Shown: positions 1 to 19,900 of the stretch, in pieces
Layout: every line of letters begins with the position of its first letter
How positions within the stretch are numbered: position 1 is the first letter of the stretch
NCBI GenBank assembly: GCA_948567375.1
Contig: OX419757.1
Coordinates: 24,918,732-24,982,731, forward strand
Direction of reading: 5' to 3'
DNA: 64,000 bases
Origin: Lunularia cruciata
Taxonomy: Eukaryota > Streptophyta > Marchantiopsida > Lunulariales > Lunulariaceae
The notes under the pieces: generated by a model
The model's database searches: none
The model's input: the letters and a program-made list of their open reading frames with translations, nothing else
What the model was told of the DNA's origin: nothing
Position numbers and translations under genes: made by a program

Positions 1-1183
1 ATTCTCTACTTTGCTTTTGCAATCAAACAAAGATGGAGGCGAACCTTGAGAAGTCTAAGGTGATTGTGGTGGGTCTAAAGGTGTCACACCTTTCTTTTTG
101 ATGGACAGCAATTGGAGCAGGTTTCTTCTTATAAGTACTTGGGCCTTGAATTTTCTCATGACTATAGTTGGTCTACTTGTATGAAAATGAGAATCAATGC
201 AGGGTTTAGAGCTTTGTATTCACTCATGAATCGCTCTAGACTTGCTCATCTTACAACATGGGAGTTGAAGAAGGTGTTGTTCAGATCTCTTGTGCAGCCG
301 GTGGTTCTCTATGGTACTCAGATTTGGGGTCCACGTACTAAGAAGACATGGTGGCAAAAGGTGGAGAAAATTCAAAAACTGTTTTTGTGTGATGAACTTG
401 GACTGAGGACTCAAACTCCTTATGTATTGTTGCTTGCTGAAACTGGGTTTTTGCCTCTTGAGGCTGAAGCTTTGTTTTTAGCTATCACATATGCCACTAA
501 GGTGAGGTCCATGGAGCATGAGAGACTTCCCTACCAAGCTTTTTGTGCCACTCTATCTGTTGGTTGGTATATAGTTCTGATTGCATAGGCCACAAGGTGG
601 AATGTTTGTGAGCAACATTGGAGATTGGAGCCTATTGCACTTTGAGAGGTGATCAAGGAGTAGTTCTTACTACGCTTATGGCAGCGACCTGGTACCAAGA
701 TGGTGTTCTATCAGCAGTTTGTAAATCCTATGTTGGTGTATTGTGAGCAAGATTATCTCCTGGCTAGGATTTCTACTTCTCTTAGACATGTGATTGCTAA
801 ATATAGAACTAGTTCCCATAGACTAGAAGTAGAACAAGGGCGTTGGCAGCAGATAGAGCACTCCATGCGGCTTTGCAAATTGTGTACTATGAGCAAAGTT
901 GATGATGAGCACCATGTGTTTGTTGATTGCCCTTGTTACACACGGATCAGAAATAGACATCAGATTATTTGTATTGATTTCTCAACTCTCTTACAGGTTG
1001 AAGCTTTAGCATTAGGGAAGTATATGACAGAGATTAGTTTACATTGGACCAATTTGTTATAGATTGGTCAGATGCCCTAGGCTTTGGCCTAGGCTCACAT
1101 TTCATGTGTTTTGTATTGTGTTTCCAGCCTTTTGACTCTTTGGGTCTTCTGGGCTTTATATTTCATTGTTTCATTGTTTCATA
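1..1183 (+). mobile_element. LINE copy 1: 3' part of ORF2 plus 3' UTR
   Basis: This is a 5'-truncated (or window-truncated) non-LTR retrotransposon fragment. It carries the region downstream of the RT catalytic core, then a 3' UTR from about 1063 with the palindromic motif CTAGGCTTTGGCCTAG, and ends at about 1158-1182 in repeats of TTTCATTG instead of poly(A). The same 3' end recurs inverted at 3484-4514 and direct at 5755-6657, so three copies of one LINE family lie within 6.7 kb. Confidence 0.8.
112..1062 (+). pseudogene. LINE ORF2 C-terminal region, broken
   Basis: The frame reads from the end of the RT domain (YKYLGLEF, the usual YLG motif) through a basic thumb-like region to a C-terminal zinc-knuckle-like motif, CKLC...HHVFVDCPCY, seen at the end of many plant LINE ORF2 proteins. 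The single frame is broken by stops near 586, 643 and 661. The inverted copy at 3.8-4.5 kb reads open at these last positions, so the stops are point mutations. The RT catalytic motifs lie outside this fragment. It cannot encode an active RT. Confidence 0.75.
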
Positions 1184-1383
1184 CCAATGTCTTGCTAAAG
1201 TTTTGTACTCTAGTAAAGCCTTACTTTGGAAGTGTGCTCAAACCATCTTTTTAAATAACAAAAGCAAATTGACGGTGTATTTGGAACATTTGTTGTGATA
1301 AAAAAAGAGGCATTGGATTGCTAGCAAAAGCACAAAAGATGGAAATATGGACAAGGGAGAACTAAGTGAGAATGTAGCAAAAT

Positions 1384-1552
1384 TGTAGGAAAACCCACTT
1401 GGCTAACTCTTACCAACATGGAGAAAGTCTCCCTCAGCAGAACCCACTCGGTTGGGCAAACCCCTAACATATTAGCAGCAAACCTGCTCAATTAGTGCAA
1501 TCCTCTAATGTACCTATATTGAAACCCACTTGACCAAGGAAAACTCCTAACA
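1384..1552. repeat. Diverged minisatellite, AAACCCACTTG type
   Basis: Loosely repeated units of about 30-60 bp follow the pattern AACCCACTTGR...GGCAAACYCCTAACATA. A related block lies at 6658-6870, on the other side of the large LINE. The two blocks look like halves of one repeat tract split by the LINE insertion. No coding potential is seen in 1184-1556. Confidence 0.5.
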
Positions 1553-1556
1553 TATA

Positions 1557-1557
1557 C

Positions 1558-1594
<37 letters not shown>
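1557..1594. repeat. (CAA)n microsatellite
   Basis: About 12 perfect CAA/ACA trinucleotide units. It sits at the junction between the AAACCCACTTG repeat and the presumed 5' end of the large LINE copy. Confidence 0.9.
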
Positions 1595-2678
1595 GGGTAT
1601 TTTGAGTTTGAGTGGAGTTTCGAAAGTTTGAGAGGAGAGGAGTCCTGAAAGTTTGAGAAGCCATATCTCACTACTTACATGTCCAAAAGTTGCAATTCTA
1701 GACTCGTTCAAAGCACCTTGCCAAGGGCTTTCCATAGCCACCAAGATTGCATCATGCTGAGCTTTGTGCAAAACGTTATGAGTGATTGAAATTTCTGAGA
1801 GAGGATCCAGATTTGAGAGTTTGAATCTTCATCATATGGTGTCCAAATGGAGTGATTTTAGAGGCATTAGAAGTGCCTTGAGAAGCTGTTTTGATTGATA
1901 ACACGCACACTTTCAGAACATATACAAACAGAAAGTTATAAAGATTCAAATTCTGCCATCTCTCAGAGATTTTAGGGTTTGAGCTCAATTTTCAACACCT
2001 TGTAACTTTTTGTCCATTGTCCATTGTCCAACTTTTTGTCCATGTCCAAGTCATTCAATCTTGGCGTCATTGGCAACACCTATGAAGGGGCTTTCTTTTG
2101 AGTACCTGCTTGCTGAAGTAGGAGTTGTGTGGAACAAGTTTTGAATTTCAACAATCTATGATCTTGTGCGGTTGGTGGTGCTCACATCTGCAACTTTCAG
2201 AGGCGTGAACTTTGGACTCACATCTTCAAATAAGGTGATATTGGTCTCATTAGAAGCATCTTTTCAAGAGCTATTGATTGGAGTTGTTTTCAAAGAATTT
2301 GAAGGTTTTTTCTTGAAGTTATAAGTATTTGAATTTTGTAACTCAATGAGGTGTAGAAGTTTACCATAGAAAACTCTAGAGGCCATAACTCCATGTCTTT
2401 TGGCTCAAATGAGTTCATTTTTGGTTCATTTGAAAGAAGTACTCAAGAGCTTTTTATTGGGTTATCACTTGTAGATTTTTAAGTACTGTAGCCAAGGTTG
2501 TGAACTTTCAAAATCTGTAGGAAAGTTTCAAATTCAAAAGTTTGTAACTTTTGATTTTCAAGTCCAAAAGAGTAGATTTTTGGTTCATGAGAAAAAGTAT
2601 TTGTAGAGCTAATCGTGTTCAGAGAGCCTGTGTGAACCAGATAATACATTCTCATAGTATCTGTTTAGAGATTTTAGA

Positions 2679-3493
2679 ATGGAAGCTTCCAAGATGATGC
2701 AAGACATTGTTGAGATAACTTCAAAACAACAACAACTTGCTGAAATGTATAGAAAAGCAAATGATTTCCACAAGGAACTCAAGAGCTTTTTTGCCCCCAT
2801 GTCTCAATGCATGAACACTATTATGGCAGATTTGCAAACCATAAGAGCTGATATCTTGAGTGTGAAAGAATCTATGAATTCGACACCGTAGATATCCAAG
2901 AACTCAAGAAGAGTAGCAATTTGATGTTAGACTCCACAAAGGGTATGGTGGATGCTACTGAGAAGGTTGCTTCCTTGGGAGCACAAGCCACTAACATTGC
3001 TTCACAAAATGGAGGGCTCCAAGAGATGGTTGACACATTAGAGATCAAGATGAAGTCATATGCTGAAGCTACTAAGGTGGCTCAAATCTCTTACTTGCAA
3101 GAGCATGAGGTTGAAAAGGAGAACCAATTAGTCAAAATGAAGAACTTGAGGATTTCAGGTTTGCCAAAGAGTGAGTAGAAAGACACCAAGGCCATAGTGT
3201 ATGAGTTTATTGCTGATTCTTTGAGAGTCCATGATCCTCAGATTTTGCAAGCATATAGATTGGGACAACAAGGTGCACAACCAAGAAGCATTTTGGTGAG
3301 GTTAGGCTCAAAAACTCAAAGGAATGCAGTGATGGATAACAAGGCTATACTAAAGAAGCATCGTATCTGGTTGGACCCTGATCTCACACCTCTCCAATGG
3401 CAAGCAAAGAAGGGAGAATTAGCAAAAGTGAAGGAGGCTCAACAAGCAAGTTTTGTTGCATTCTTGAGAGATAATAGAGTTGTGAAACAATGA
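2679..3493 (+). pseudogene. LINE ORF1-like nucleic-acid-binding protein, broken
   Basis: Three open segments encode a coiled-coil-rich N-terminus (2679-2889, and 2921-3176 in another frame) followed by an RRM-like region with the ORF1 signatures LRISGLPKSE, AYRLGQQG, PRSILVRLGSKTQRN and RIWLDPDLTPLQ. In active LINEs, ORF1 coats the RNA and acts as a chaperone. Here stops at 2889 and 3176 and a frameshift near 2890-2920 break the frame. The apparent C-terminus (GTGAAACAATGA) is created by the tail of the inverted LINE inserted there. The original C-terminus may resume at about 4515 (reading toward a TAG near 4552), which is inference. Confidence 0.65.
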
Positions 3494-4514
3494 AACAATG
3501 AAATATAAAGCCCGAAAGACCCAAAGAGTCAAAAAGCTAGAAACACAATACAAACCACATGAAATGTGAGCCTAGGCAAGGGCCTCAGACATCTGACCAA
3601 TCTGTAACAAATTGGTCCAATGTAAACTAACCTCTGTCATGTACTTCCCTAACGCTAAAGCTTCAACCTATAAGAGAGTTGAGAAATCACTACAAGTAAT
3701 CTGATGTCTACTTCTAATCTGCATGTAACGAGGGCAATCAACAAACACATGATGCTCATCCTCAACTTTGCTCATAGTACACAATTTGCAAAGTCGCATG
3801 GAGTGCTCTATCTACTACCAACGTCCTTGTTCTACTTCTATTCTATGAGAACTAGTTCTATATTGAGAGATAACATGTCTAAGTGAAGTAGAAATCCTAG
3901 CCAAGAGATAATCTTGCTCACAATACACCAACATAGGATTTACAAACTGCTGATAAAATACCATCTTGGTACCGGGTTGCTGCCATAAGCGTAGTAAGAA
4001 CTGCTCCTTGATCACTTCTTGAAGTGCAATAGGCTCCAATCTCCAATGTCGCTCAGAAACATTCTACCTTGTGGCCCATGTAATCAGATCTGTATACCAA
4101 CCAATAGATAGAGTGGCACAAAAAGCTTGGTAGGGAAGTCTCTCATGCTCCATGGACCTCACCTTAGTGGCATATGTGAGAGCCAAGAACAAAGCTTCAA
4201 CCTCAAGAGGCAAAAACCCAGTTTCAGCAAGAAGCAATACATAAGGAGTTTGAGTCCTCACTCCAAGTTCATCACACAAAAAGAGTTTTTGAATTTTCTC
4301 CACCTTTTGCCACCATGTCTTCTTAGTACCTGGACCCCAAATCTGAGTACCATAGAGAACCACTTGCTGCACAAGAGATCTGAAAAACACCTTCTTCATC
4401 TCCCATGTGGTAAGATGAGCAAGTCTAGAGCAATTCATGAGTGAATACAAAGCTCTAAACCCAACATTGGTTCTCATCTTCACACAAGTAGACCAACTAT
4501 AGTCATGAGAAAAG
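3484..4514 (-). mobile_element. LINE copy 2: inverted, 5'-truncated insertion
   Basis: On the minus strand this matches copy 1 from about position 155 to its 3' end. Open segments run 4528-4064 and 4039-3815 in one frame, separated by one stop. The tail units (TTTCATTG on the minus strand) begin exactly at the ORF1 end, where the target already reads GAAACAATG, so the tail seems to have annealed to matching target sequence. Similarity to copy 1 stops after CTATAGTCATGAGAAAA near 4514. It is less decayed than copy 1 (one stop against three). Confidence 0.8.
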
Positions 4515-4570
4515 ATGTGATTACTCAAAAGAAATTGTCAGCTACTGCATAGCAATTCCAGACCCTTAGA

Positions 4571-5724
4571 GTGTTATTTTGGAATGTTCATGGGCTCACA
4601 CATACCAAGTACTCCAGTGCTAAGCCTTTGTGGGATGATGTTGATCTGATCAATCTTGTGGAGACATGGGAACATGAAGGAAACACCATTCAAGATATTG
4701 AAGGATTCACTCTTGTTGGTTCAACCTGGAACAAGCAAAGGCAACACAGAGGAAGGGGCTTTGGAAGTATTGCTACTTACGTCAGATTTGGCTTTGAGAA
4801 ATCAGTCTCTTTGATAGGTCAAGATTCAAGTGGACAATACCAATGGCTGAGGATTGGAGGAGTTGCCACACCTTGCTTCATTGCTGTTTTTTACTTTGCC
4901 CCATTGATAGCACCAATCTATTCAAGTGGAGTTCTCAACACCATGCAGCCTTTCCACTCCTTGACAAAGGATGTGTTAGAGTTTCAAAGTAAAGGTGCAG
5001 AACATGTTCTTGGTGATTTCAATGCTAGGATCCAAACCTCTCAGATCCCTGAGTTGAGTGACCTTGAGAATGATCCTTCCCACAGCTTGATAGACCATTC
5101 TAGTGCATGGTCACGCTCTTGCAAAGATCCTATGTCCAACCCCATGAGTAAACACTTTTTGATCTTTGGTGCCAATTGTAGCTTGAAGATCTTGAATGGC
5201 CTTTCTCAATTTCCAGAAACTTGTAAAAGCACATGCTTTGCCTCAAGTGGATCAAGCACCATAGATTATATGCTCACTTCAGAAAATGATATCCATCTTG
5301 TCTCAGATTTTGTTGTTTTAGATCCTCAACCAGAATCAGACCATGCACCTCTATCTTGTACATCCTTCTCCCTTGCCTCAATAGAACCACATTACCTATT
5401 GACCATACCTTTAGAGGCAAACTTTGTCTAGATTTTCACAAGAGAGACTTGTACCAACAAGCTACCCAAGAGAAATTGAGTTCTATGGAGTGGAGTTTTG
5501 ATTTTCAACAACATAGTGATCAATTGGTTGAACTTCTTCAATCCACATCTACTTCTTTGTTTCCAAGAGGCTCTCACATGAAGAGACTTGGTCTCCCTTG
5601 CAATAGGTGGTATGATGCTAATTGCAAAATGGCAAGGATCAAAGCTATGGATAGGTCTCTTGATCAGATTGCACAAAATCAGGCCTTTGTTTCATACAGA
5701 AAGTTGGTGAAGTGCAAAAAGTGA
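4571..5724 (+). pseudogene. LINE ORF2 apurinic-type endonuclease domain, broken
   Basis: The frame begins in the endonuclease with FWNVHG and continues with ETWE, FYFAP, GDFNAR, STIDYML and SDHAPLS, the ordered motifs of the exonuclease-endonuclease-phosphatase fold used by LINE ORF2 to nick target DNA. A one-base frameshift between about 5390 and 5430 moves the frame (the second part ends at 5724). The following linker should lead into RT motifs, but these are absent because the sequence jumps to the ORF2 C-terminus at about 5755. Confidence 0.8.
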
Positions 5725-5754
5725 GCATTTTATAGACTCAAGGGGGTTGAGTTG

Positions 5755-6531
5755 AGCACTGAAGCCAGTGGTTCTCTATGGTTCTCAGATTTGGGGTCCA
5801 GGTACTAAGAAGACATGGTGGCAAAAGGTGGAGAAAAATTCAGAAACTGTTTTTGTGTGATGAACTTAGACTGAGGACTCAAACTCCTTATGTTTTGTTG
5901 CTCGCTGAAATAGGGTTTTTGCCTCTTGATGCTGAAGCTTTGTTCTTGGCTCTCACATATGCCACTAAGGTGAGGTCCATGGAGCATGAGAGACCCCTAC
6001 CAAGCTTTTTGTGCCACTGTATCTATTGGTTGGTATACAGATCTGATTGAATGGGCAACAAGGTGGAATGTTTCTGAGCGACATTGGAGATTGGAGCCTA
6101 TTGCACTTCGAGAGGTGATCAAGGAGCAATTCTTATTACGCTTATGGCAGCAACCCGGTACCAGGATGGTGTTCTATCAGCAGTTTGTAAATCCTATGTT
6201 GGTGTATTGTGAGCAAGATTATCTCTTGGCTAGGATTTCTACTTCACTTAGACATGTTATTGCTCAATATAGAACTAGTTCTCATAGACTAGAAGTAGAA
6301 CAAGGGCATTGGCAGCAGATAGAGCACTCCATACGACTTTGCAAATTGTGTGTACTATGATGAGCAAAGTTGAGAATGAGCACCATGTGTTTGTTGATTG
6401 CCCTTGTTACACACAGATCAGAGTTAGACATCAGATTACTTGTAGTGATTTTTCAACTCTCCTACAGGTTGAAGCTTTGGCATGAGGGAAGTATATGATA
6501 GAGATTAGTTGACATCAAACCAATTTGTTAT
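5755..6531 (+). pseudogene. LINE ORF2 C-terminal region, second direct copy, broken
   Basis: Homologous to 290-1062: QIWGPGTKK, the LLAEIGFLPL block, FYQQFVNPMLVYCEQDYLLA, and the zinc-knuckle-like C-terminus from about 6340. There are several frame changes (near 5835, 5990 and 6350) and stops. The junction with the endonuclease part at GCCRGTGGTTCTC marks an internal deletion of the RT catalytic domain. Confidence 0.7.
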
Positions 6532-6657
6532 AGATTGGTCAGATGCCCTAGGCTTTGGCCTAGGCTCACATTTCATGTGTTTTGTATTGTGTTTCCAGCC
6601 TTTTGACTCTTTGGGTCTTCCGGGCTTTATATTTCATTGTTCATTGTTCAGTGTTCA

Positions 6658-6870
6658 ACAAAACCTACTTGGTTGGCCAAACCCCTAACATACTCGTAGC
6701 AAAACCAACTCGACCAAGGCAAACCTCTAATGTACCTATATCAAACCCACTTGATCCATAATGTAAATGCAAGCAAACCCCTTTTATACCCACAGAAAAA
6801 CCCACGTGAGTAGGGCAAACTCCTAACATACACATAACAAAACCCACTTGATTAGGGCAAAGAAGAAACC
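6658..6870. repeat. AAACCCACTTG minisatellite, second block
   Basis: Repeats of the type AAACCCACTTGATYAGGGCAAA and CCTAACATAC resemble the 1384-1552 block. The block directly follows the LINE 3' tail and is the likely right half of the repeat array that the LINE entered. From 6871 to 6998 I see only unique non-coding sequence before the gypsy element. Confidence 0.5.
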
Positions 6871-6998
6871 TAAATCTTCTTGCCAATTCCATGATTAAAG
6901 CAAATCCTACTCTTTGAAAACTTGGAACTTATTTGTAAACTTAGGACAAGTTTGAACACCAAAAGATCCAAAGAAAGTATTTCTTACACATTCAACAT

Positions 6999-7447
6999 TG
7001 TCACGCCATTTGTAGTTCCGCATCTAGATGCTCGGACATTGGAGTTCTAGTGATGGTAGTTAGAGTTATTCTAGTTGTTTCTCAGGGACTACTTTCTGAC
7101 GGTTAGATTTTGTGTTTGGGGTACTGACTTCACGGTGGGGCCCACCATCACTTTGCACCGTTTGCACCGTCGGGTGTGCCGTCAGCGGGATCATTAGGGT
7201 TTCAGGGCTAGCTCGAGTCCAGGGGGTATAGTTTTGAAGTGAGCTCCAGAGAGCTCACTTCTCTGATGTTGAGCCTTCGAGTTCCTGGCTATGGTGGACA
7301 GAGGCCGGCGAGCGTCACCTGGATTCTCTATGCTTGAGTGGGTGTGGCTTGACTGTAATCAGTGCCCAGTTGTTGGCAGTTTATAGAGTGACAGATCAAG
7401 TACTGATCTGAGTTGAGTTGAGTTGAGAGTGTTAAGCAATCTGATTA
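6999..7447 (+). repeat. 5' partial LTR (segment Y only)
   Basis: 449 bp, collinear with 16374-16822 without indels. It runs from TGTCACGCC to AATCTGATTA. The 105-bp segment X that precedes Y in the 3' LTR is missing here, so this copy starts in the middle of the LTR. It contains GGGGCCCACC and the inverted repeat GAGCTCCAGAGAGCTC near 7242-7257. Confidence 0.9.
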
Positions 7448-7465
7448 CATCAGAGAAGTGAAGTC
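7448..7465 (+). promoter_or_regulatory. Candidate primer-binding site
   Basis: Directly after the LTR end (GATTACA) the sequence reads ATCAGAGAAGTG. The ATCAGAG core is shared with the initiator-methionine tRNA binding site commonly used by plant gypsy elements (TATCAGAGC core), but the match is short. The position supports it; the tRNA identity is unproven. Confidence 0.35.
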
Positions 7466-8990
7466 AGGGGGAAATCGGGTGCAGAAACGTTGAGTGTTGG
7501 TGGTATCTCCAAGCTCGGTGGATCGTGGTAGCTCGATTCAGGTTCTATGTTTCCCTAGTGTGCACAAGCTCGTGTAGTTGATGCAAATTTGGCAGTTAGG
7601 CGGACGGTGTGCGGAAGCGCTGGCCAAATTTTGAGCAAAGAAGGAGCAATTTTCGAGCAGTGTTGTGATTTTGAGCTCAGGATTGTGAAGGCAGGACCAA
7701 TTTGCTGCGAGTTGGGCTCAGAAAGTGAAATTGAAGGTGGAGTTGGAAAGCTTTTCTCATGAAATTGTGATTTGGAAAAACCCGTTTTGTCAATTTGGCT
7801 TGAGTGGAAAGTTAGCGGGGGATTTGGCGGACATCCATCTTTAGGGTTTACGTCAGATTTTACATCAGATTTACGTCAGATTTTGGGCCAGAATTGGAGG
7901 AGTTTCGCTGTTTGGCCAGATTTGGAGAAGTTTCGCTAGTTTGGAGGAGTTTTGCAGATTTGGAGAAGTTTCGCCAATTTTGGAGGAGGTTCGAAGTGGC
8001 AACAAGAAAGGCCTCATTTGGCTGAATTTTGGCGTTTCGAGGCTTCGAGGCATAGGGCTGTGGGCTATGAGAGGCTACGAAGGCCTAGAAGGGCCAGCAA
8101 GCCAGCTTGCTGGCGTGAGGCTAGCTAGTTTAGTGTAGATCTTGGTCATTGGTTGGCAAAATCTGCCTTTCTTGCTAGATTGTGCGCAACAGGGTTTGAC
8201 CCCTAGATCTCTTGTTCCTAGACTGGTGCCCTAGCCAACTGGTCCACCCTCACTTGTTGTCATAGTGACTGTGCCACTGTTATCTATACACATGTAGCTT
8301 TGGCTAGGAGAGGCAGTTTAATCCCATTCTTGGTGATCCTGGTAGCTTAGGACTTAGATACGAACTACTCTTATGTCAAATGCCAAATGGTGGCAGAGTC
8401 AGTCCCGTGTTGTGTTATGAGATGGAGGGTTTTTGTTTAGATTTCTTGTGATTGGATCCCCTCCATTCTTTGCTTCTTGTTTGTGCACCACGTTTGTGTG
8501 AGGTGCCTTGACTTTTGAGCGTTGGTGCTCTGGTGTGCTCTCGGTGGTGAGGCTGGAGTGATGACCAGTCAGACTACCTTTGTTTCTCTCCGGTGAGGCA
8601 GGAAGTGATGACCTGCAGACCGTGAGAGTGTGTGTTATGATGGCAGGTTACAGGTTGCCCTTCCCCTAGTGTAGTTATCTCGGTTAGAGTTACATTAGTG
8701 GGTGGTGTCTAGTTGGTGTTGGCACTTGGTGGGGCACTTGCAGTTGCGACTTGCGGTTGCAGTTGGTGGTTCGGGTTTGCTGTTGCAGTTACGTGGTCAC
8801 GACGGAGTTCTTTGGAGATTCCAGAGGAGTTAGCCCTGCAGTACGTAGTGGGTTTACTCGGAGTGGTACTCGGTATCAGCCTGTATCTCAGGTCCCAGTG
8901 AGGGAGGAGATTGACTCTGAGTTGGAGTTCGACACAAGAGCTGATTCAGTTGAGAGTGCACTTGGTGTGTCCGCACCGTTGTTGTGGGAC
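7466..8990 (+). other. Long untranslated leader of the gypsy element
   Basis: About 1.5 kb lies between the 5' LTR and the first in-frame ATG. It contains short tandem repeats: ACRTCAGATTT units at about 7849-7880 and four near-repeats of TTTGGAGAAGTTTCGC at about 7895-7990. An antisense tRNA-like stretch sits at 8185-8255. The reading frame of the polyprotein is open from 8688 (after a TAG at 8685), without an ATG until 8991. Confidence 0.6.
8185..8255 (-). other. tRNA-like sequence, antisense in the gypsy leader
   Basis: Read on the minus strand it has a D-arm-like GGACCAGTTGGCTAGGGC, an anticodon-arm-like CTAGGAACAAGAGATC and a T-arm-like GGGGTCAAACCC, in tRNA order and spacing. The B box is imperfect (GGTCAAACC against GGTTCGAATCC) and the acceptor stem does not clearly pair, so a working tRNA is unlikely. 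It resembles the tRNA-derived heads of plant SINEs. Confidence 0.35.
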
Positions 8991-10260
8991 ATGGACAAGA
9001 TTTATGGGGCCTCCAAAGGCCCTAGGCGTTACTCTGGTATAGTGGGTACTATTGAGTTGGATGATTTCATCCAGGAGTTCGATAGTTGGTGTGATCTGCA
9101 GCAGATGCGGAACCCGACTTTGTTCACACCCTTCATGGCATGGAAGGGGTTGTTTCAGCACTTGGAGGGTCCACCGATGGACGACTACCATGAGTTCAGG
9201 AGAGCTCATTTGGAGGAGATTGAGTTATGGAGACAATATTGGTCTCCTCACTATGTCTCCATCACTTCAGGCTCGGTGGCCAGGAGTAGATCGGCTGTAC
9301 CTACGAGTTCTAGCTCGAGTAGTGTGGGTGGAGCTAGTGGAGGTGCACTAGCTGGAGATAGTGCTACTACGAGTGGAGGTACCGCTGCAGGAGGTGGTGT
9401 GGTACCGGGGTTTAACCCCATGGTTGAGTTCTTCCTATGTTTGAGGCAGAACTACCAGGGACTGCGGACTGACAAGCTGAGGAGCTTGCAGGAGTTCCAA
9501 CGGAAGGCTGGAGAGAGCCTACGCGAGGCATACACTCACATGAGGCAGCTGATCAGTTTCACTCAGGGAGTTACTGAGGCCCAGGCAGTCCAGTTTTGGT
9601 ATGGGATATTGGACAGGGAGTTGCGACGTAGAGTTCGTGATGCTACGTTGTTGCAGGCTACTTCGCCCACTTTGGCAGTAGTCTTTGGTTTGGCTGAGCG
9701 TATTGAGCTTAACATGGTGGAGGAGAGAGTGGTGACATCTGGATTTGGTAGGGAGACCTCATCCACGGTTGTGACTTCTTCTAGAGTGCAGCAGAGTGCA
9801 CCACGCCCAGTTGGTTTTCGAGGACAGGGTGAACAGCCCAGATCCTATGGAGCGAGTGGAGGGCCTAGTGGAGTTAGACCCTTACCCTCATTTTCGGGTC
9901 AGCAGCAGCCAGTGAGTGGTGGTGTTGCTTGTTGGACTTGTGGTGGACCTCACCATAGGAGAGAGTGTACTCAGGGCAGCGGACCTGATACCTCTGGTGC
10001 ATCACAGCCAGCACAGAGGCAGTGTGAGCATTGCCACAGATTTGGTCACACTAGTGACCGGTGTTTTGACCTACACCCGGAGTTACGGAGTGGTAGAGCT
10101 GCTATGGCAGGTAGTAGAGGAGCTCCAGTTCATGGAGGACGAGGTGGTAGAGGTGGTGGTAGAGGATCTACACCTAGTAGGGGTGCAGTACCTGCCCTTA
10201 CTTCTGACACAGCTATGGCTACTTGGATTGAGCAGTTGGAGCAGAGATTGGCTAGTATGG
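8991..10260 (+). other. Gag region with two CCHC knuckles and an RGG-type tract
   Basis: The N-terminal part is Gag-like: an EFDSWCDL helix region, a Ser/Gly-rich linker at about 9280-9400, then the retrotransposon-Gag core with LQEFQRKAGESLREAY and WYGILDRELRRRV. Zinc knuckles follow at 9930-9968 (C-X2-C-X3-H-X4-C, slightly short) and 10023-10064 (canonical C-X2-C-X4-H-X4-C). A Gly/Arg tract (GGRGGRGGGRG) follows at about 10135-10170, an RNA-binding type sequence. After it, about 270 residues up to the protease have no domain I recognise. Confidence 0.85.
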
Positions 10261-10899
10261 CTATTGCTCATAGGAGATCAGATTCAGGTGCTAAGGCTTC
10301 CACCTCATATGCTGGTGATAGAGATGCTTTGGACTTCATGTGCGGAGCAGCACAGGTGGATGTATCTGCAGCAATGACTAGGAGTGCAGTACGTGCTCCA
10401 GAGCCTAGAGGAGCATTAGTGGAGTTGGACCCACAAAGAGGAGAGGTTGGGAGACAGGTCAGACTTCCCCAATCTTTCACGCTATCTGAGGCATTGCAGA
10501 CGACATCCATGGTTCCTAGACGTCCCAGTGCAGGTGTGGTAGGTGGTGATGGAGTACTTGATGGAGTACCTGCTAGTCAACCACCTGCTACTACACAGAC
10601 TGAGTCTAGCATGATGTTGGGGGCGGCTCAGCTGATTATGCGGCATCCTTTATTTTCAGCCAGTGACATGTTTACATTGGGAGTGGACCCAGCCCCAGTG
10701 TTCCAGTTGGCTGCCACGTTGTGTGAGAGTAGGGATGGTGCAGTTCCTACTACTAGAGCAGAGGTGGTTGGTAGTGGAGCTGACTTGGTTGAGGAGCATG
10801 GGATCCGTTCAGCGACCAGTGGTTTATGGCAGGCAGCAGCGGCTAGACTGGAGGAGTTGCCAGCTAGACCGGCCTTTGAGAGAGCGCGGTTTACACCTG

Positions 10900-11270
10900 G
10901 TGTTGTCCTATTGGATAACCAGAGGGGGATCTTTCGTTTGGTGGGACCTTCAGGGAAGGTCTATACACCACAGAGAGTCTTGTTAGACTCTGGTGCGCAG
11001 CCCTTTATGTTGGGGAAGGCTGCAGTTGTTGGTCTGGAGTTACGGAAGACCGATGTGGAGAGGTGTCCATTTCAGATCCAGACATCTCTAGGTGGTGGTT
11101 CGACACAGTACATCACATGTGGGGAGCTTGTTGTCCAGGTTCAGCCTGGTCATCCGACTGATAGCTCAGTGGTGAGAGCTCAGGCTATTGCGACGATAGC
11201 TGAGTCATATGATGTGCTAGTTGGGGGAGCAGTGTTATACCCTATGGGTTTCAATATTGACTATTGGGAG
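10900..11270 (+). other. Aspartic protease domain
   Basis: VLLDSGAQPFMLGKAAVVGLEL carries the retropepsin active-site triad D-S-G; the catalytic Asp codon is 10986-10988. A downstream hydrophobic block, YDVLVGGAVLYPMGF, matches the usual ILG-type motif that closes the retropepsin fold in gypsy elements. It matures the polyprotein. No stop lies in this domain. Confidence 0.8.
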
Positions 11271-11689
11271 GAGACAGCCTCTTATAGACCTGGTTGGCAG
11301 TCTGGTGAGGGACGGGTATGTCGCCTACCAGTACGCTTTAGTAGTGGCAGTCTTGGCTCACTACAGTCCGGGACCATGGCAGCATCAGTTTTGGCTTTCA
11401 GCGGTGCAGTTACTTGGCCTGGTGACTTGTTGGAGGGGAACGCCCATGCAGAGGATACTCCAGTACCAGAGGAGATCACTCGGCTATGGAGTACGAGTGG
11501 GATTGTTCCATCCACCTTGGATGTTCCATTGTGGAGTTTAGAGGAGGCATTGCAGCAGCATGCAGATCAGTTGGTGCAGCAGGCTTGGAGTGGAGCCTTT
11601 GTACCATCAAGGGATGAGTGTGAGGATGAGCCTCCAAAGGCGATTGCTTTGACACCTCTGGATACCACACTCATTGCTTGGCAGTATCT

Positions 11690-12670
11690 AGTAGAGGGGA
11701 TATGTCTATTAGAGTTGTTTGGTGGGATCAGCACCGGACTAGCTGCGGTGTTACAGGCGGGTATCCGAGTACAGAGGTACTTGTATGTAGAGAAAGATGA
11801 GACTGCTAGGCGAGTCTCTCTACATCATGTGGCACACTTGGCCTATCGGTATCCGGAGTTATTACTGATGTCAGCAGTCAGAGGTTACCAAAAGGCCTTA
11901 CCAGGAGACATTTCCTTATTGGGGGCGCATGACCTAGAGAGACATGGGCCTATTCACTTGGTGATTTCTGGATGGCCATGTCAGGGACATACACGTGCGA
12001 GCCGCGGTTTGGGTCTTCAGGATCCTCGTTCTGGTGTGTTTTGGGAGATGTTACGGATACTACGACATCTCCAGGTTCATCAGTCTGTTTCTCCAGCTTA
12101 CCTTTTGGAGAACGTTCCATTGATGGGTGATTCTCGCACTAGAGTGGTGGCGAGTACACATCAGGTCCATTCTTGGATGGGACCTGCTGTATTGTTAGAT
12201 GCAGCCAGAGTGGGATCACGGGCTCATCGTCTTCGTCTTTGGTGGACGAACCTTTTACCCAGAGAGGTTCTACAGCGTAGTTATGATGGGATTCAGCGAC
12301 TAGACCACATTCTTGTTGATGATATCTTGGATGCTGGACGTCAGTCTCAGACAGTGGTAGTGGCTGATAGGTCACCTATGGCAGTGGTGAACCTAGTTGG
12401 ACAGCCTAGAGCTGCATTTCCCACACTCATGAGTTTCCCAGGCTCTCATGCTTTTCGAGAGGGAGGACCTGGACTTGTTTGGGACTCACAGTTACAGCAG
12501 TTGGTGGAGCCCAATGCTGATGAGAGAGAGCAAGCGATGGGTTTTTGCACCGGTATTACCGCTGTTCCAGCAATGTCAGAGGCATCCAGGCGTCAGGTGT
12601 TAGGTCAGGCTATGGACCTGAACTGTTTGACCTGGATTGTGAGCCTTGGTTTGGCAGAGCAGCGTAGGAT
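11690..12670 (+). other. C5-cytosine DNA methyltransferase domain inside Pol
   Basis: About 325 residues hold the ordered C5-MTase motifs. Motif I is LLELFGGISTG (11706 on; SAM binding). Motif IV is SGWPCQGHTRASRG, with the catalytic Cys codon at 11979-11981. Motif VI is LLENVP, with the Glu codon at 12108-12110. Motif VIII is HRLRLWWTNL (R-x-R, 12228-12236). Motifs IX-X are EREQAMGF ... SRRQVLGQAMDLNCL (to about 12640). All catalytic residues are present and no stop falls inside. The ERxxGF-SxxxRxxLGxxxxxxxL ending and the short target region recall DNMT3/DRM-type rather than MET1/CMT-type enzymes. It lies between PR and RT in the same frame. DNMTs in retrotransposons are known from charophyte algae and dinoflagellates (de Mendoza and colleagues, 2018). 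A role in methylating the element's own cDNA is inference. Confidence 0.9.
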
Positions 12671-13129
12671 GCGCTTGATAGGCATCACCACTCGGACACT
12701 TGTGAGCCCTGTGCCTATCGAGACGATTCAGGCACATGCTGGGGGCGATGGACCGAGTGGACATGGTATTCTTGGGACACATCCAATAGCTACTAGGGAA
12801 AGTGGTCTACTTGGAGTCCATCCAGGTGAGCGTGGGCTACTTGGATTACACCCTTGGTCCACATGGGATGCAGCCAGAGGACGTATGGAGCTTGCAGCCA
12901 AAGTGGAGGGAGTTTTTCACACAGAGGTTGGGACCTCTAGTGGTCGGGAGCATGACACCATTGCTCCCAAGGGCCCAGTATAGCAGCCAGTCAGTACGTC
13001 TTCCACTCCTACTACAGTTACAGAGGATACTTGGGAGCCAGATCTTGGACCCAAGCTTACTAGAGAGGAAAGACGGAGGGTTTGGAGGTTCTTGAGGAGT
13101 CACACGAGTTGTTTTGCCTTCAGTATGAA

Positions 13130-14099
13130 GGATTTGGGTGCTCTGAAGGGACCTGGTATACGGATTGAGCTGACTAGCGACACATCTGTTTTCCGACGTC
13201 CTTATCGATATAGTGAGATGGAGAGGACATTGATTCAGAGCCGGAGTAGTGACCTTTTTGAGGCTGGTTTGGTGGAGATTTCACATGGAGAGTATGCATC
13301 AGCAACAGTGATGCCAGCCAAGAAGGATATGCATGGCAACTATACAGATAGGCGGATGTGTGGAGATTACCGTCCTATCAACCGACAGACCAGGGCTGAT
13401 CGGTATGCCATGCCTACACCGGAGGAGATTTTTGATGCGATTGGGCATGCAAAGGTCTTCAGTACTTTGGATCTTCGAGCGGGATATCATCAGTTGCCGA
13501 TCAGGGAGGAAGATAAGTCCAAGATAGCATTTTGGGCTATTGATCCTCACGGCAAGGATGTGTTATATCAGTGGAGATTCTTACCATTTGGGTTGAAGAA
13601 TGCTCCTGCTGAGTTCCAGAGGGTCATGGATAGGATCCTAGCTGGACTGGATTTTGCTCGGTGCTATATTGATGACATTTTGGTGTATAGCACTACTGTG
13701 GAGGAGCATGAGAGACAGTTGTTGGAGGTGTTTGAGAGGTTGAGATCTCATGGACTCAAATTACATCCTGGGAAGTGTAGGTTCTTCCACAAGCAGGTTG
13801 AGTATTTGGGTCACACTATCTACCCCGGAGGACTTGGTGTTCAGCAGACCAAGGTGGAGGCTATTGCACGTATTCCTCGGCCTACGGATGTGAGCAGAGT
13901 GCGAGCATTCCTTGGGTTGGCGAACTTCTATCGCCGCTATGTTAGAGGATTTAGTGCCATTGCCAAGGCCTTGACGAAGCTGACCAAGCTTACACAGGAG
14001 TGGTGTTGGGGAGATGAGCAGGAGAGAGCTTTTGTAGAGCTCAAGGAGAGGTTGACATCTGCTCCTATTTTGAGGAGACCGATCAAGGGACGACCATTT
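13130..14099 (+). other. Reverse transcriptase domain
   Basis: Typical Ty3/gypsy RT: YRYSEMERTLIQ, CGDYRPINRQT, FSTLDLRAGYHQLPI (motif A, catalytic Asp), FLPFGLKNAPAEFQRVMD, CYIDDILVYS (motif C, YIDD at about 13664-13675), HPGKCRFF and VEYLGHTI, followed by the connection region FLGLANFYRRYV. It is complete and uninterrupted from 12984 to 14099. The TAG at 12981 precedes it and the TAG at 14100 separates it from RNase H. Confidence 0.93.
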
Positions 14100-14102
14100 T
14101 AG

Positions 14103-14470
14103 GTTCACACTGATTGGAGTATGTTGGGGCTTGGAGCAGTGCTCACCCAGCATGATGATGAGGAGAAGGAGTTTGTGGTGGTCTATGCTAGTCGCTCCAA
14201 CAATTCAGCGGAGGTGAAGTATAGTTCATATGAGGGAGAGTGCTTGGCAGCAGTTTGGGCACTAGCACATTTCCGATGTTACCTATTTGGTAACCCCTTC
14301 ACTCTCATCACTGATCATCAGCCGCTGAAGTGGTTGATGGAGTGCGACAAGCTTTCAGGGAAGCTTGCACGATGGGCTCTGATTTTGCAGGAGTATGATT
14401 TCACGGTTGTTCACAGACCTGGAGTGGTGAACCGTGATGCAGATGGGTTGAGTAGAAACCCATGTCCCAG
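14103..14470 (+). other. RNase H domain
   Basis: VHTDWSMLGLGAVL (catalytic Asp), YSSYEGECLAAVWAL (Glu), FTLITDHQPLKWL (Asp) and VVNRDADGLSR (Asp) are the four carboxylate motifs of gypsy RNase H. The domain is intact but follows the TAG at 14100-14102, where homologues have a Gln-type residue. Confidence 0.88.
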
Positions 14471-14675
14471 CCAGCAGGATCAGACCGGAGCATGTTGGCA
14501 TGGTGAGACAGATGAGGAGATGGTGCCAGGTTGGCATGCATCGGCCTTTTTGTGTATATTTGCAGAGACTTTGGTGGTATCTCTCTCAGTGCATACATGA
14601 GGAGTTATTGAGGTCACAGATCCAGAGAGTGAAGATATTGGTATAGTTCAGCGAGACATTCATGATGATATCTTA

Positions 14676-15900
14676 GTGATGGACTATCTTTGCACTGGTG
14701 TTGTGGGTGGCACAGTTGGGGCCAAGGAGAGAGACCGTGTTCTTCAGCAAGCCAGACGGTTCAGATTGGAGGGTAGACACCTTTTGCATGTATGGGAGGA
14801 TGGTAGAGTGCGAGTAGTACCACTTCCATCACAGAGACCACAATTGGTCCGTCATGCTCATGAGGAGCTAGGACATTTTGGAGTAAAGCGTACATATAGC
14901 TTACTCCAGAGTCATTATTGGTGGCGCGGTATGCAGACCGAGGTATAGCAGTTCGTTGCCAGATGTGTGGTTTGTGACCGAGTTAGAGCATCATTCAATG
15001 CTCCTACGCCACAGTTACACCCATTACCTATCATGGGATTGGGTTACCGTTGGAGTTTGGACTTCGCCGGACCTTTACCGCTGACTGTGAGACATCATCG
15101 GTATGTTTTGGTGATGGTGGAGCACTTCTCCAAGTGGATTGAGTTGGTGGCACTTCCTGACAAGTCTAGTGAAGGGACAGCTTACTCGTTCCTGGATCGA
15201 GTTCTTAGTCATTTTGGTGCACCAGCTGAGGTTTTGACTGATCAGGGTACAGAGTTCTTGGGAGAGTTTCAGGTCTTGTGTGACAAGGCTTTGATTGATC
15301 ATCGTACTACATCCCGAGATCACCCTGAGGCAGATGGCTTAGCAGAGAGAGTGGTTCAGACGGTGAAGAGAGGATTGCGAAAGTATGGTTTGCAGAGAGG
15401 CCACTTGGGAGATTGGGATCTCCAGTTACCTTGGTTGGCCATGGGCTATCGGTTCAGCCGGCAAGCCTCCTTAGCATCCTTCTCTCCATACTTTCTACTC
15501 TATGGACGAGATCCAGATTTACCTGCAGCCATTCGTCGAGATGCTACTGTAGTTTTGGACTTGGATGACCCTGATGTATGGATGAGCGCATGTTCACAGC
15601 GGGTAGAGATCTTTCGGAGAGTGATGCCGATGGCCTTCGAGAACTTGGCGATTGCTCAGCATAGAGATACTTTACGCTATGCTACCATTCGAGGAGGAGG
15701 TTATAGACCCTCGATCTGTCGATTTCATCCAGGCGACTATGTATATCTACAGCAGACAGCACCGACGACACTTGATGTTTCTATAGGCCGCACTATCTTG
15801 AGAGTGCGCAAGGTTTTGCCATCTGGAGTCCTTGTGTTAGAAGGACGTGATGGTGTTGTTTGGAAGGATCATGTGCGCAATTGTGCGCCATGCCACCTCC
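14676..15900 (+). other. Integrase: HHCC zinc finger, DDE core, C-terminal domain
   Basis: The zinc finger reads HAHEELGHFGVKRTY ... CVVC (14840-14990), split by the TAG at 14946. The catalytic core has Asp at 15060-15062 (SLDFAGP), Asp at 15240-15242 (LTDQGTEF) and Glu at 15345-15347 (ADGLAER), a D-D-34-E spacing. The C-terminal part contains FHPGDYVYLQQ and LRVRKVLPSGVLVLEGRDG, the GPY/F-like small-barrel region. No chromodomain follows; a PHD finger does. Confidence 0.88.
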
Positions 15901-15950
15901 CAAACATTGATGGTACTATGGACCCAAGCTTGGCACTTGTACGTGCAGGC

Positions 15951-16097
15951 TTGAGGTGTATGTTATGTGGCTCTTCTGGTGGAGCTGCTACTATGTTAGT
16001 GTGTGATAGCTGTTCGAGAGGATGGCATATGGCATGTATGACTCCTCCCCTCACGGTGGTTCCTCAAGGACAGTGGTTATGTCCTAGATGTACTTGA
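15951..16097 (+). other. PHD finger at the integrase C-terminus
   Basis: The last 48 residues fit a C4HC3 PHD finger: CMLC, CDSC, GWHMAC and WLCPRC, with the conserved Trp before the last Cys pair. PHD fingers read histone H3 tails. It sits where chromoviral integrases carry a chromodomain, so a role in choosing insertion sites is a reasonable inference. The natural stop TGA follows directly. The zinc ligands are all present. Confidence 0.88.
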
Positions 16098-16255
16098 CCT
16101 ATAGCTAGTTCATTCTTTATATGGTATAGATTGCAGACAGGCGACTAACGATGGGGCTCCATAGCACCCGGCCTCCTGATCTTTGCCCATTAGAGGGTAT
16201 ACCATATACTTAGAGTAGATGGCTATCTGGAGTTAGAGGGACCTAACCGCTAGCT

Positions 16256-16262
16256 AGGGGGG
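16256..16262 (+). promoter_or_regulatory. Polypurine tract
   Basis: AGGGGGG lies four bases before TGTGGCAC, the start of LTR segment X. Plus-strand priming here places the U3 start at X, which shows that the functional LTR is X followed by Y. Confidence 0.7.
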
Positions 16263-16266
16263 CGAT

Positions 16267-16823
16267 TGTGGCACTTTAGAGTCTATGTATGACTTATGTG
16301 TGAGTTGTGCTTTTATAGTGTATGATGTTGACAGCGATGTATGTTGTGTAGCGATGTATATACGCACGACAGCTGTCACGCCATTTGTAGTTCCGCATCT
16401 AGATGCTCGGACATTGGAGTTCCAATGATGGTAGTTAGAGTTATTCTAGTTGTTTCTCAGGGACTACTTTCCGACGGTTAGATTTTGTGTTCGGGGTACT
16501 GACTTCATGGTGGGGCCCACCGTCACTTTGCACCGTTTGCACCGTCGGGTGTGCCGTCAGCGGGATCGTTAGGGTTTCAGGGCTAGCTCAAGTCCAGGGG
16601 GTATAGTTTCAAAGTGAGCTCCAGAGAGCTCACTTCTTTGATGTTGAGCCTTCGAGTTCCTGGCTATGGTGGACAGAGGCCGGCGAGCGTCACCTGGATT
16701 CTCTATGCTTGAGTGGGTGTGGCTTGACTGTAATCAGTGCCCAGTTGTTGGCAGTTTATAGAGTGATAGATCAAGTACTGATCTGAGTTGAGTTGAGTTG
16801 AGAGTGTTAAGCAATCTGATTAT
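16267..16823 (+). repeat. 3' LTR (X + Y), complete
   Basis: It starts TGTGGCAC directly after the polypurine tract. X is 16267-16371, GC is at 16372-16373, and Y is 16374-16822. In the 5' copy Y ends GATTACA before the primer-binding site, so the intact LTR reads TGT...ACA, about 557 bp. At the X|Y border lies the palindrome GACAGCTGTC, which looks like two LTR ends (CA, GC, TG) facing each other. Confidence 0.85.
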
Positions 16824-16928
16824 TGTGGCACTTTAGAGTCTATGTATGACTTATGTGTGAGTTGTGCTTTTATAGTGTATGATGTTGACAGCGATGTATG
16901 TTGTGTAGCGATGTATATACGCATGACA
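16824..16928 (+). repeat. Extra LTR segment X after the 3' LTR
   Basis: 105 bp, identical to 16267-16371 except one transition (ACGCATGACA against ACGCACGACA). It is joined directly to the end of Y (GATTA|TTGTGGCAC), which is what an LTR-LTR junction with small end loss would look like. It ends at TGACA, followed by the target sequence ACATAC. Confidence 0.88.
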
Positions 16929-19900
16929 ACATACATGATATAGTTAGAACCCAAAAGATACAAATCTATTTTTATTTAATACATGTTCAAGTAAACAGAT
17001 TCTGGAATCTGTAGATCTGACATAAATGGATGGGAGAGTTGCATTATCCTTCTTGTATAGAATATACAAGTACCTCAAAAAGAGGTATATATTTCAAGAA
17101 GATATTTAGAAAACTACAAAGTGAACAAAGCAGAGGTGAAACGTCAACATACTCCACTTCCATGCTATTTGAACAACTCTCAACAACACTTGCCATTGCT
17201 TGGATGCTTGCACTATCCACTTTCAGTATGGAATTTGATCTACCCCAATTCTCATTTGAACTAACTAAGTGACCAATGAATAATACTTGGATTTCTCCTT
17301 TTCACTTAAAAATTATCACTACTCACTTGAACTTGAACTTAAACTTAAACTTGGAACAACACATTAGAGAACTAGACATTTTGGATCATTGCTATAGATC
17401 TCAACAAGTGTCCTATCTCCAAAGTAGCATTTCATATACTCATAATAATTTTAATCTTCTAAGGTTTTCTAGTCTTGGTTAACTCCAAAATCATAAAATG
17501 AACTAGTTTAGATTTTTCACTTCTCTCTTGATTCTCTTCTTTTCTACTTTCAAATTTAGTATATCTTTTTCTAATTTTTTTCATCAAATCTTTCTACCTT
17601 TGTGACCCTATATGCTTCATTTTGACCAAGCTATATCTCTCCCTTGATTCCATTGATTTGCTTGTTAGTTTCAAAATATTAGAAAGATCTTGAGTAAAGG
17701 CAGCCGTGGTAGCCAAAGAGTGTGCCTTGCACTGAGAAACTTTCCTATTTTTTGTGATTCATTTTCCTTTTTCCTTCCTTGTCACTCTCTTGCTCTCCTC
17801 TTAGCTCTCAATCTCTTTCTCAAGCTTGAGGTTCTTCTTCTCTACCTTCTTCTTGTGCCCAAGGTTCTTTTTTGCCAAGTGTACTTGGTTAATGTGGTGA
17901 TGGGATTCAAATCTCCTCATGCATTGGCATAGTGTACTCATGGTCTTGCAAGAAATTGGGACAAGAAGAAATGACTCTTGGGGCTTTGAACAAAAGGAAA
18001 TGACTCTTGGGTACCAAGAACACTATACCTTGGTCTAGTACATGCTTGTGTGTATAAAGTTCCTTGCTCAAAGAAATCATCATCCATTGCTTGTTCACAT
18101 GGTTGCTCACATGAAACTAGCAAACCATCTTCTTCATCTATTACCATATCTAAAATTCATTTTCTACACTTAAACTCACCACGGAAGGTAGAGAAATATT
18201 AGCACAGGTTCAGAGAGAAAATCCATGCTTGCAAATATGGACATATATGATTCAACTTATCCTTGTTTCAGCTCCTTCTTTGTGAGTCCTTCTCCTGTGC
18301 ACTTGTCCTTTTATGTGCAAGCTTGTCTATAGGAGGCCATGAAACGAGCCCATTTTTGTATAGCCTCTTCTCAGTCATGGACTCAAGATAACTCTTTCCA
18401 AATTTGATAAGGTAAGTAGCCATGTAACTAAAAGCGGTACTCTTTTGAACTGGTTTCTTGCAACTACTCCCATGTATTTGATTGAAATATTAAAGGTCTT
18501 CAAGATAGTCCAACAACTGAACATAATGGTGAATGACCATTCTAAATTGCTTGTCATCCTCCTCTTTTGGTTTTGAGCTTGTATATGAAAGCTCCATTGA
18601 CTGTCCCGATCATTGCTCCACTTGTTCCACTCCTTTTGGTTTTGAGCTTATAGATGAAAGCCCCATCAACTATCCCGATGAATGTTCCATTGTCCGCCCA
18701 TATACACCGTGTTTAACAAATCCTGGAATTTATCAAGAAATGGAGGTGGAATAGATTCACTATATATTATAACCAAATCTTGCAGGAGAGGGTGGAATTG
18801 CTTCTACACTATTTGGCTCCAAAGGAGGTGGAATAGATTCACAAGAGTTTGAAACCTAATCTTGTGCAAGGGATTGAATTGCTTCTACACTATTTGAATC
18901 TAACTTACAAGGATTGACACTTCCTTCCAGAGAAGGAAGTACTGACTTGTGAGGAAAGGTGCACTCCATATTTACAGCTCTTTGAATTTTCTTGCACAGC
19001 AAAGTTAGTGCAGTTATGATCTCCTCCTTCCCCTTCACAATACCTCCTCCATTCCCCAAAATGCTGGTGCAATGAAATTTTGAATACCGCTACGTTACGG
19101 ATGTTTGAAAGAGTTCTATCAAGGTCAAGACTTAGTACCCAATTGGAAGTTTTTCTGAGCGCACAACTTGGCGCCAAAAAACATCATATGTAATCTAAAG
19201 CGGACTCTCTTATTCCTCATTTATTCACTCAGGAGGATGAGCTTGAGTAAAATTATAAAACATCAAGGAATCCAAATTACAATTTAGTCTTCTTCATTTT
19301 CATAAATCTCTGATTCAAATCGTTTGCTCAGGTGCTATTGTACGGATGGCTCAAAGATTTAACTCGTTTGCTCAAGCGGTGCTAGCCGATGATTTAAATC
19401 GTTTGTGCGCCAAACCAGGAAGGATTTCCTCTTACAATGCCATGTAATCACTACTTTGTTTACCATTAATTATATAAGATTTGGTCATTATTATTAGCTA
19501 TAACCTTGTACCGATTTTGCCCTTGATGTTATAGTTCTGTTGTTCTGCCGGGATAGTGTGGAAATGGAACCATATAAAGTTGGTAAACACTCATAATTTT
19601 GTTGAAGGCTTGTCCTTTTCTCTACACATGTTTTTTAGAGGGTGTGTCCAAACTTCGTGTAGGTATCCTTCGGAGGCCGTAAATTTCCCCAAAAAGCTAT
19701 CATTGAAACGCTCTATTGTTATAGACGTGAGAGAAACCTCGTTGAATTATACATGAGCACCTTATGTAACTCTCTAATAATTAAAGAGTCATGATTTTCA
19801 GAACCCATAAGCTTTTACGGGTCTAAGGGAGGTCCCATAGACCATAAGCCTCGACAAGTTGACCAGAAATTTGCATCTAACAGTGAAATAATCTAATTCC

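Follow-up and report, generated by a model that had tools for sequence, protein, structure and literature searches.

Organization of the Element

The window, that is, the whole 64,000-nucleotide stretch of Lunularia cruciata DNA analyzed here, contains a retroelement whose parts are listed in Table 1. Its coding order is Gag, protease (PR), and methyltransferase (MT), and behind one stop, in the same frame, follow reverse transcriptase (RT), RNase H (RH), integrase (IN), and a PHD finger. The Ty3/gypsy domain order PR-RT-RH-IN, with an rve integrase, is present. A related element is encoded by a 9285-base contig (CADCWO010000201.1, hereafter L031).

Table 1. Parts of the element, with their positions in the window and supporting details
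Feature	Position	Strand	Details
Target-site duplication (TSD) ACAT, left copy	6995-6998	+	Right copy 16929-16932; 4 bp only, weak alone
Terminal repeat A1, 449 nt, element start TGTCACG	6999-7447	+	437/449 identical to A2
Gag region (approximate), from ATG 8991	8991-10979	+	Within ORF 8688-12983
Two CCHC knuckles of Gag	9930-9968 and 10023-10064	+	
Aspartic protease region (approximate)	10890-11339	+	LLDSGAQPFMLG at 10980-11015; 68/147 aa identical to L031
DNMT3-type C5-cytosine MT domain	11673-12707	+	Fold spans about 11688-12665
C-terminal tail of Gag-PR-MT polyprotein, poorly conserved	12708-12980	+	23/91 residues align to L031
TAG stop, then CAGCCA, between MT and RT	12981-12983	+	UAG-CAR-YYA leaky-stop motif
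Reverse transcriptase, closed by in-frame TAG 14100-14102	12984-14102	+	PF00078, 111 bits
RNase H, closed by in-frame TGA 14598-14600	14103-14600	+	PF17917, 117 bits
Integrase H2C2 zinc-binding region, closed by in-frame TAG 14946-14948	14601-14948	+	PF17921, 48 bits
DDE integrase core and C-terminal region	14949-15956	+	PF00665, 50 bits; 225/312 aa identical to L031
PHD finger ending the integrase, stop TGA 16095-16097	15957-16091	+	PF00628, 42.6 bits; L031 has one too
Polypurine-tract-like AGGGGGG, two bases 5' of B1	16256-16262	+	G-run at comparable place in L031
Repeat B1, 107 nt	16265-16371	+	106/107 identical to B2
16-nt junction CACGACA-GC-TGTCACG between B1 and A2	16365-16380	.	Identical in L031 at 7048
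Repeat A2, 449 nt	16374-16822	+	
Repeat B2, 107 nt, element end ...GCATGACA	16822-16928	+	Followed by TSD copy 16929-16932

The Gag region is 49-65% identical to those Marchantia rows that have a Gag match. For the protease, the window ORF gives no Pfam match at E 0.001, and L031 gives one that is sub-threshold. Within 6900-17000, Rfam reported nothing at its gathering threshold. A noncoding block resembling GACTAACGATGGGGCTC.CAT.GCACCCGGCC is kept directly behind the PHD ORF in both elements (window ~16143-16175, L031 ~6755-6785), and folding revealed no clear structure.

ORF1 is intact in the window copy, and ORF2 is interrupted by stops at 14100, 14598, and 14946, so a full RT-IN product from this copy is unlikely. 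By our own count, 6 of the 12 differences between A1 and A2 are CG against TG/CA, as is the single difference between B1 and B2 (CG against TG), and CpG observed/expected is 0.48 within the element. These differences, together with the low CpG value, suggest methylation of the locus in the host. The element locus has thus probably been CG-methylated there.

The neighboring sequence at 1-6641 holds an inverted pair of 1031-nt arms, and this stretch recurs there in several shorter copies, some direct and some inverted. An endonuclease-domain ORF lies at 4553-5431, and this part probably consists of nested non-LTR retrotransposons. On the other side of the element, a 690-aa C2-domain protein is encoded on the minus strand (45350-47422). 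It has four matches at our chosen cut of E <= 1e-50, all from liverworts: Marchantia paleacea (61% identity), M. polymorpha (53% and, in a match that covers 65% of the query, 65%), and Riccia fluitans (53%). On these matches alone, the window would most likely be read as liverwort DNA.

Class and Conservation of the Methyltransferase Domain

The MT domain is complete, with motifs I, IV (PC), VI (ENV), VIII (RxR), IX, and X in order and a Rossmann-type fold. The initial annotation had described a complete C5-MTase domain between protease and RT of a gypsy element, and the ordered motifs, the common frame, and the profile matches bear this out. The MT-family profile scores DNMT3A at 91.8 bits. 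PDB rows that bear the name DRM2 reach 37.2, and 4onj, which is labelled only "DNA methyltransferase" in its PDB row and which we take to be tobacco DRM, reaches 47.2. This class comparison considered 60 of 66 PDB rows, none of the 60 being named CMT or DNMT5. When DNMT3 is set against DRM, DNMT1, DNMT2, and the bacterial enzymes, the window MT lies nearest to DNMT3, and on these scores it is a DNMT3-type enzyme set apart from those four classes. DRM enzymes have a circularly permuted motif order. A DRM origin, and with it the DRM-like ending suggested earlier for the domain, is rejected because the order I-IV-VI-VIII-IX/X is unrearranged and DNMT3A outscores the DRM rows.

The best match by both sequence and structure is the catalytic domain of DNMT3A/DNMT3B, which has the same fold and motif order. 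Enzymes of this kind establish new methylation in animals. Motif IV of the window MT is PCQ, however, and not PCN as in these enzymes, and the residue that the profile alignment sets against DNMT3A R836 is hydrophobic (V). Asn occupies the position equivalent to DNMT3A N838 in 8 of 8 rows of the MT alignment. R836 and N838 are taken here as the CpG-reading residues of DNMT3A. Pfam reported no PWWP or ADD domain in ORF1, and no other ORF1 domain at E 0.001.

Among 90 related MT domains, 86 retain the catalytic Cys, three have a gap at its place, and one has Tyr; the 90 are those of 166 matching proteins with at least 250 profile positions and a span under 420 aa. The other motif residues that were counted are likewise kept in most relatives. 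Between the window and L031, pN/pS is 0.35/0.75 for MT, 0.28/0.77 for RT, 0.23/0.80 for IN, and 0.44/0.83 for PR, and since synonymous change is saturated, these values are not dN/dS. The MT pN falls within the range of the other enzyme domains, between those of RT and PR.

Relatives and Evolution of the Domain

A search with the domain region returned 44 long related proteins, the top one, from Marchantia polymorpha, being 71% identical over 98% of the query; Sphagnum fallax is also among the 44. A profile search of shorter proteins gave 221 matches, and the 120 of them listed include Marchantia polymorpha, M. paleacea, Riccia sorocarpa, Calypogeia fissa, Sphagnum troendelagicum, and a row Chrzof1, taken here for the green alga Chromochloris zofingiensis. 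Among these 120, none was recognized as a host plant DNMT3. Given the 44 and 221 related proteins, we reject a one-off insertion of the domain into a single copy, a possibility that the initial annotation had raised. The matches suggest that DNMT3-carrying retroelements are widespread in the green lineage, with relatives in mosses and green algae. A scan of viral contigs gave 30 loci, with a highest segment identity of 47% over 38 residues.

L031 is 51% identical to the window element in MT, 62% in RT, 72% in integrase, 64% in the PHD finger, and 33% in the aligning part of Gag. Its two ends have 127 identical bases in common, so that the contig can be closed into a circle, which probably reflects how repeats were assembled. 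L031 is filed under a cyanobacterial metagenome bin though it is a eukaryotic-type retroelement, and P0051, named from a Candidatus Obscuribacterales bin, belongs to the same DNMT3-retroelement family; both bin placements are probably contamination.

By architecture, 8 of the 44 long proteins have the MT before RT, 10 have it behind RNase H, and 26 have no RT match. P0011, which belongs to the last set, has RNase H and IN behind the MT. In nine of the ten proteins with the MT behind RNase H, an integrase follows the MT (P0036 shows none), and the precomputed Pfam list gives a PHD finger for all but one of the ten. The arrangement with the MT behind RNase H and before the integrase (RH-MT-IN) characterizes a branch of P0033-P0041 and P0043, together with the Chromochloris-labelled P0071. 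Motif IV is ECQ rather than PCQ in P0033, P0036, P0039, and P0043 of this group, and Glu stands at the place of the motif IV Pro in 12 of the 90 aligned MT domains. P0033 also has a long extra C-terminal region after its PHD finger, which by eye has a second methyltransferase-like look.

MT and RT trees were compared for 16 elements with both domains (16 of the 17 rows given an RT; P0012, not among the 90 domains, was left out). Each tree splits the two architectures by a 100/99 branch, and both give the same order of window, Marchantia, and L031; P0036, P0041, and P0042 are placed differently or weakly between the two. Because the trees agree on the main groups, the MT domain has largely descended with its elements. 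In a 39-row MT tree (38 of the 90 domains plus human DNMT3A as outgroup), the window groups with Marchantia, Calypogeia, Sphagnum, and metagenome rows (100/99) and then with L031-type rows, and the Chromochloris row joins the RH-MT-IN group (100/99). The root on human DNMT3A falls among the MT-before-RT rows; since the outgroup branch is very long (4.05), the direction of the MT move is unsure.

Given the distant outgroup, the simplest account of these trees would be one capture and one later move of the MT. The initial annotation had also considered a separate capture, and a tree without host plant DNMT3 does not fix the number of capture events. Nevertheless, a capture in liverworts separate from that in algae is very unlikely, as the MT and RT trees concur in how they divide the two architectures and in their order of window, Marchantia, and L031, and the window MT nests inside the liverwort/moss clade, with the L031-type rows next.

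The Stop between Methyltransferase and Reverse Transcriptase

In the window copy, Gag-PR-MT is one intact ORF (8688-12983), which the MT ends before the TAG. This stop, with the same in L031, leads us to reject an MT fused inside an uninterrupted Pol for the window copy. The earlier placement of the domain inside Pol thus holds by domain order but not by translation, as the domain ends the Gag-PR ORF. The TAG is followed by CAGCCA in the window and by CAATCA in L031 (at 3489), and both fit UAG-CAR-YYA, described as the Type I readthrough motif (PMC11166343). A CAR-YYA context follows both MT/RT boundary stops (2 of 2), and none of the three further internal stops in the window has it; the DNA comparison of the boundary covers two sequences, the window and L031. 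If all bases were used equally, a TAG in this context would by our arithmetic make up roughly one in 1500 stops. Predicted RNA structure 3' of the stop is inconsistent, with z of -0.34 in the window versus -3.36 in L031. In L031, ORF1 (Gag-PR-MT) enters from the contig start and runs to 3491, ORF2 (RT-RH-IN-PHD) occupies 3492-6635 in the same frame, and the stretch between bases 3 and 6635 is free of further stops.

Motif X could be placed by pattern in 25 of the 44 long proteins. Sixteen of the 25 end 28-141 aa beyond it, 15 of these at 86-141 aa, and P0014, P0015, P0017, and P0018 share nearly the same last residues as L031 ORF1. The other nine continue past motif X, six into RT (P0004, P0006, P0009, P0031, P0032, and P0042), and the remaining three belong to the RH-MT-IN class (P0034, P0035, and P0041). 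MT and RT are found in one predicted protein in 8 of the 44, namely in P0004, P0006, P0009, P0012, and P0031, which are Marchantia/Sphagnum gene models, and in the metagenomic P0029, P0032, and P0042. Therefore, either some members do without the leaky stop or it is passed over in gene models; as judged from the predicted proteins, the boundary stop is a feature of part of the family.

The stop at 12981 could also be an inactivating mutation or a simple ORF boundary, with the MT a part of Pol and RT-IN obtained by reinitiation, splicing, or frameshifting, or in fused form. Such a reading would agree with the decay evident from the three other stops of the window copy, and with the eight relatives, both gene models of Marchantia and Sphagnum and metagenome proteins, that read from MT into RT. 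We nevertheless consider it unlikely, given that the otherwise stop-free L031 has a TAG with CAR-YYA at the same boundary and that P0014, P0015, P0017, and P0018 terminate nearly as L031 ORF1 does. The UAG-CAR-YYA fit in both the window and L031 points instead to a leaky stop by which the MT is probably made in Gag amounts.

Split Repeats and Integration

The element is bounded by A1 (6999-7447) on the left and by B1-GC-A2-B2 (16265-16928) on the right, which gives the arrangement A-body-B-A-B. Two matching full-length LTRs were not found at its ends, A1 standing on the left and B1-A2-B2 on the right, and plain LTRs are rejected because of this repeat pattern. The element starts with TGTCA, ends with TGACA, and has ACAT on both flanks. 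A1 and A2 align without gaps, and 12 of their 12 differences are transitions. The 3' noncoding stretches of the window (16098-16950) and L031 (6636-7500) have no longer word in common than the B|GC|A junction, CACGACAGCTGTCACG, which occurs once on the plus strand in each of the two sequences. Local alignment of the 3' noncoding stretches gave a score of 40, and the highest score among 500 single-base shuffles was 27. A G-rich tract immediately precedes B in both elements.

The split direct repeats are those of DIRS/PAT elements, but the tyrosine recombinase of that class was not found in the coding frame: PF00589 is absent at E 0.001 from its five ORF pieces, which have an rve integrase instead. 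PAT/Ngaro elements are described with the same A1-B1-A2-B2 repeat logic and with a tyrosine recombinase (PMC4157794), whereas the coding frame in the window has the rve integrase only.

We propose that reverse transcription would yield a molecule with long repeats B-GC-A and that its closure into a circle would join A directly to B. The integrase would then open the circle at the conserved CA-GC-TG junction, giving the permuted A-body-B-A-B form with TG...CA ends and a 4-bp duplication. With five approximate probes, a good tRNA primer site was not found (best 8/12 in the window; 9/12 or 10/13 in a longer stretch of L031), and the want of a convincing primer-binding site weakens this circle and junction model.

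Comparison with Known Systems

The closest known system is KnitGypsy-Dnmt3 of Klebsormidium nitens (de Mendoza et al. 2018; PMC5890265). As described there, it resembles the window element in its gypsy-type Pol and in an intronless, unrearranged Dnmt3-type domain with conserved key residues, and the legend of Fig. 4 gives its repeats, accompanied by gypsy domains, as "the same as that of a DIRS retrotransposon" (PMC5890265). The window element has this combination of gypsy Pol, Dnmt3 domain, and DIRS-like repeats, and is matched to it by description, not by sequence. The expectation that a DNMT-bearing retrotransposon of this charophyte kind exists in another plant group is thus supported. The host is a liverwort instead of a charophyte alga, and the algal domain is described within the Pol ORF (PMC5890265), whereas the window MT ends the Gag-PR ORF. 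SymbioDIRS-Dnmt3 of dinoflagellates likewise combines a Dnmt3-type domain with A-body-B-A-B repeats, but has a tyrosine recombinase where the window element has a DDE integrase and gypsy RT, and is distantly related to gypsy elements according to its authors (PMC5890265).

The initial annotation had credited retrotransposon-borne DNMTs with de novo CG methylation. This applies to SymbioDIRS-Dnmt3, for which CG methylation is reported as demonstrated in yeast, but not to the Klebsormidium gypsy domain, which gave none there (PMC5890265). Human DNMT3B gave none either, and the K. nitens result was therefore not decisive for its authors (PMC5890265). The inactivity of that domain would suit an MT kept for a non-methylating role, whether nucleic-acid binding, a scaffold, or RNA methylation, the last of which the same authors raised for the LINE type (PMC5890265). 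Such a role is most improbable, since most relatives keep the catalytic Cys along with the other motif residues counted, and a scaffold could do without these.

A retroelement-borne DNMT is thus already known as a kind, and cDNA methylation has already been proposed by de Mendoza et al. for DIRS-type elements of such sort (PMC5890265). The words "Marchantia" and "liverwort" are absent from the main text of that article, and its text yielded no Gag-PR-MT ending with a leaky-stop context, second MT placement, or conserved junction (PMC5890265). Among the titles and abstract beginnings surveyed, none named a liverwort or moss retro-DNMT. What appears to be added here is the liverwort host, the Gag-PR-MT ending with its leaky-stop context, the other position of the MT that algal-type elements show, and the junction kept between the window and L031.

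Proposed Mechanism

We propose a green-lineage family of Ty3/gypsy-type elements with a DNMT3 in which the MT, dosed like Gag by means of readthrough, marks the particle cDNA and the integrase opens the circle junction; we give this proposal an even chance of being right. Gag-level dosage, particle entry, and cDNA methylation by the MT are what we infer. Gag-PR-MT would be the main product, and RT-IN would come from occasional readthrough. At Gag dosage, the MT would enter the particle and there methylate the new double-stranded cDNA, for which a CG context is plausible, and the element copy would reach the nucleus already marked. Such pre-marking could protect the copy in a host that senses or edits DNA lacking methylation or, alternatively, could delay its expression until establishment.

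Host chromatin, rather than particle cDNA, might instead be the main target of the MT, which would act at insertion sites or close to them, or would compete with host methylation. PHD fingers are typical histone-tail readers, and the element contains one, although it sits on the integrase and is not joined to the MT in the main product; a targeting domain is likewise not seen in ORF1 by Pfam at E 0.001. The CG-to-TG/CA differences between repeats, which indicate a probably CG-methylated locus, would fit this alternative, but as deamination traces they are silent on which enzyme methylated. The ability of dinoflagellate retro-DNMT domains to methylate CG de novo in yeast (PMC5890265) also speaks for it. 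On balance, we regard action mainly on host chromatin as rather improbable.

The preferred reading, of a Gag-dosed MT marking particle cDNA, can be carried further. An ancient family reaching from green algae to liverworts might use an MT that a leaky stop doses like a capsid protein to pre-mark its cDNA and a retroviral-type integrase to insert the closed circle through a two-base-spaced junction, a version that we put forward as doubtful. Bacterial insertion-sequence minicircles show a comparable circle opening at a spaced junction. If the ancient-family version were true, the place of the MT, and not its presence, would have changed in the RH-MT-IN branch.

Implications

Elements that methylate DNA challenge the idea of methylation as solely a host weapon. 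With the Lunularia element, a phenomenon described in a charophyte alga reaches bryophytes, which are open to culture and transformation, and Marchantia carries close relatives. One old green-lineage family is suggested, and both the scheme of leaky stop and Gag dosage and the integration junction are testable.
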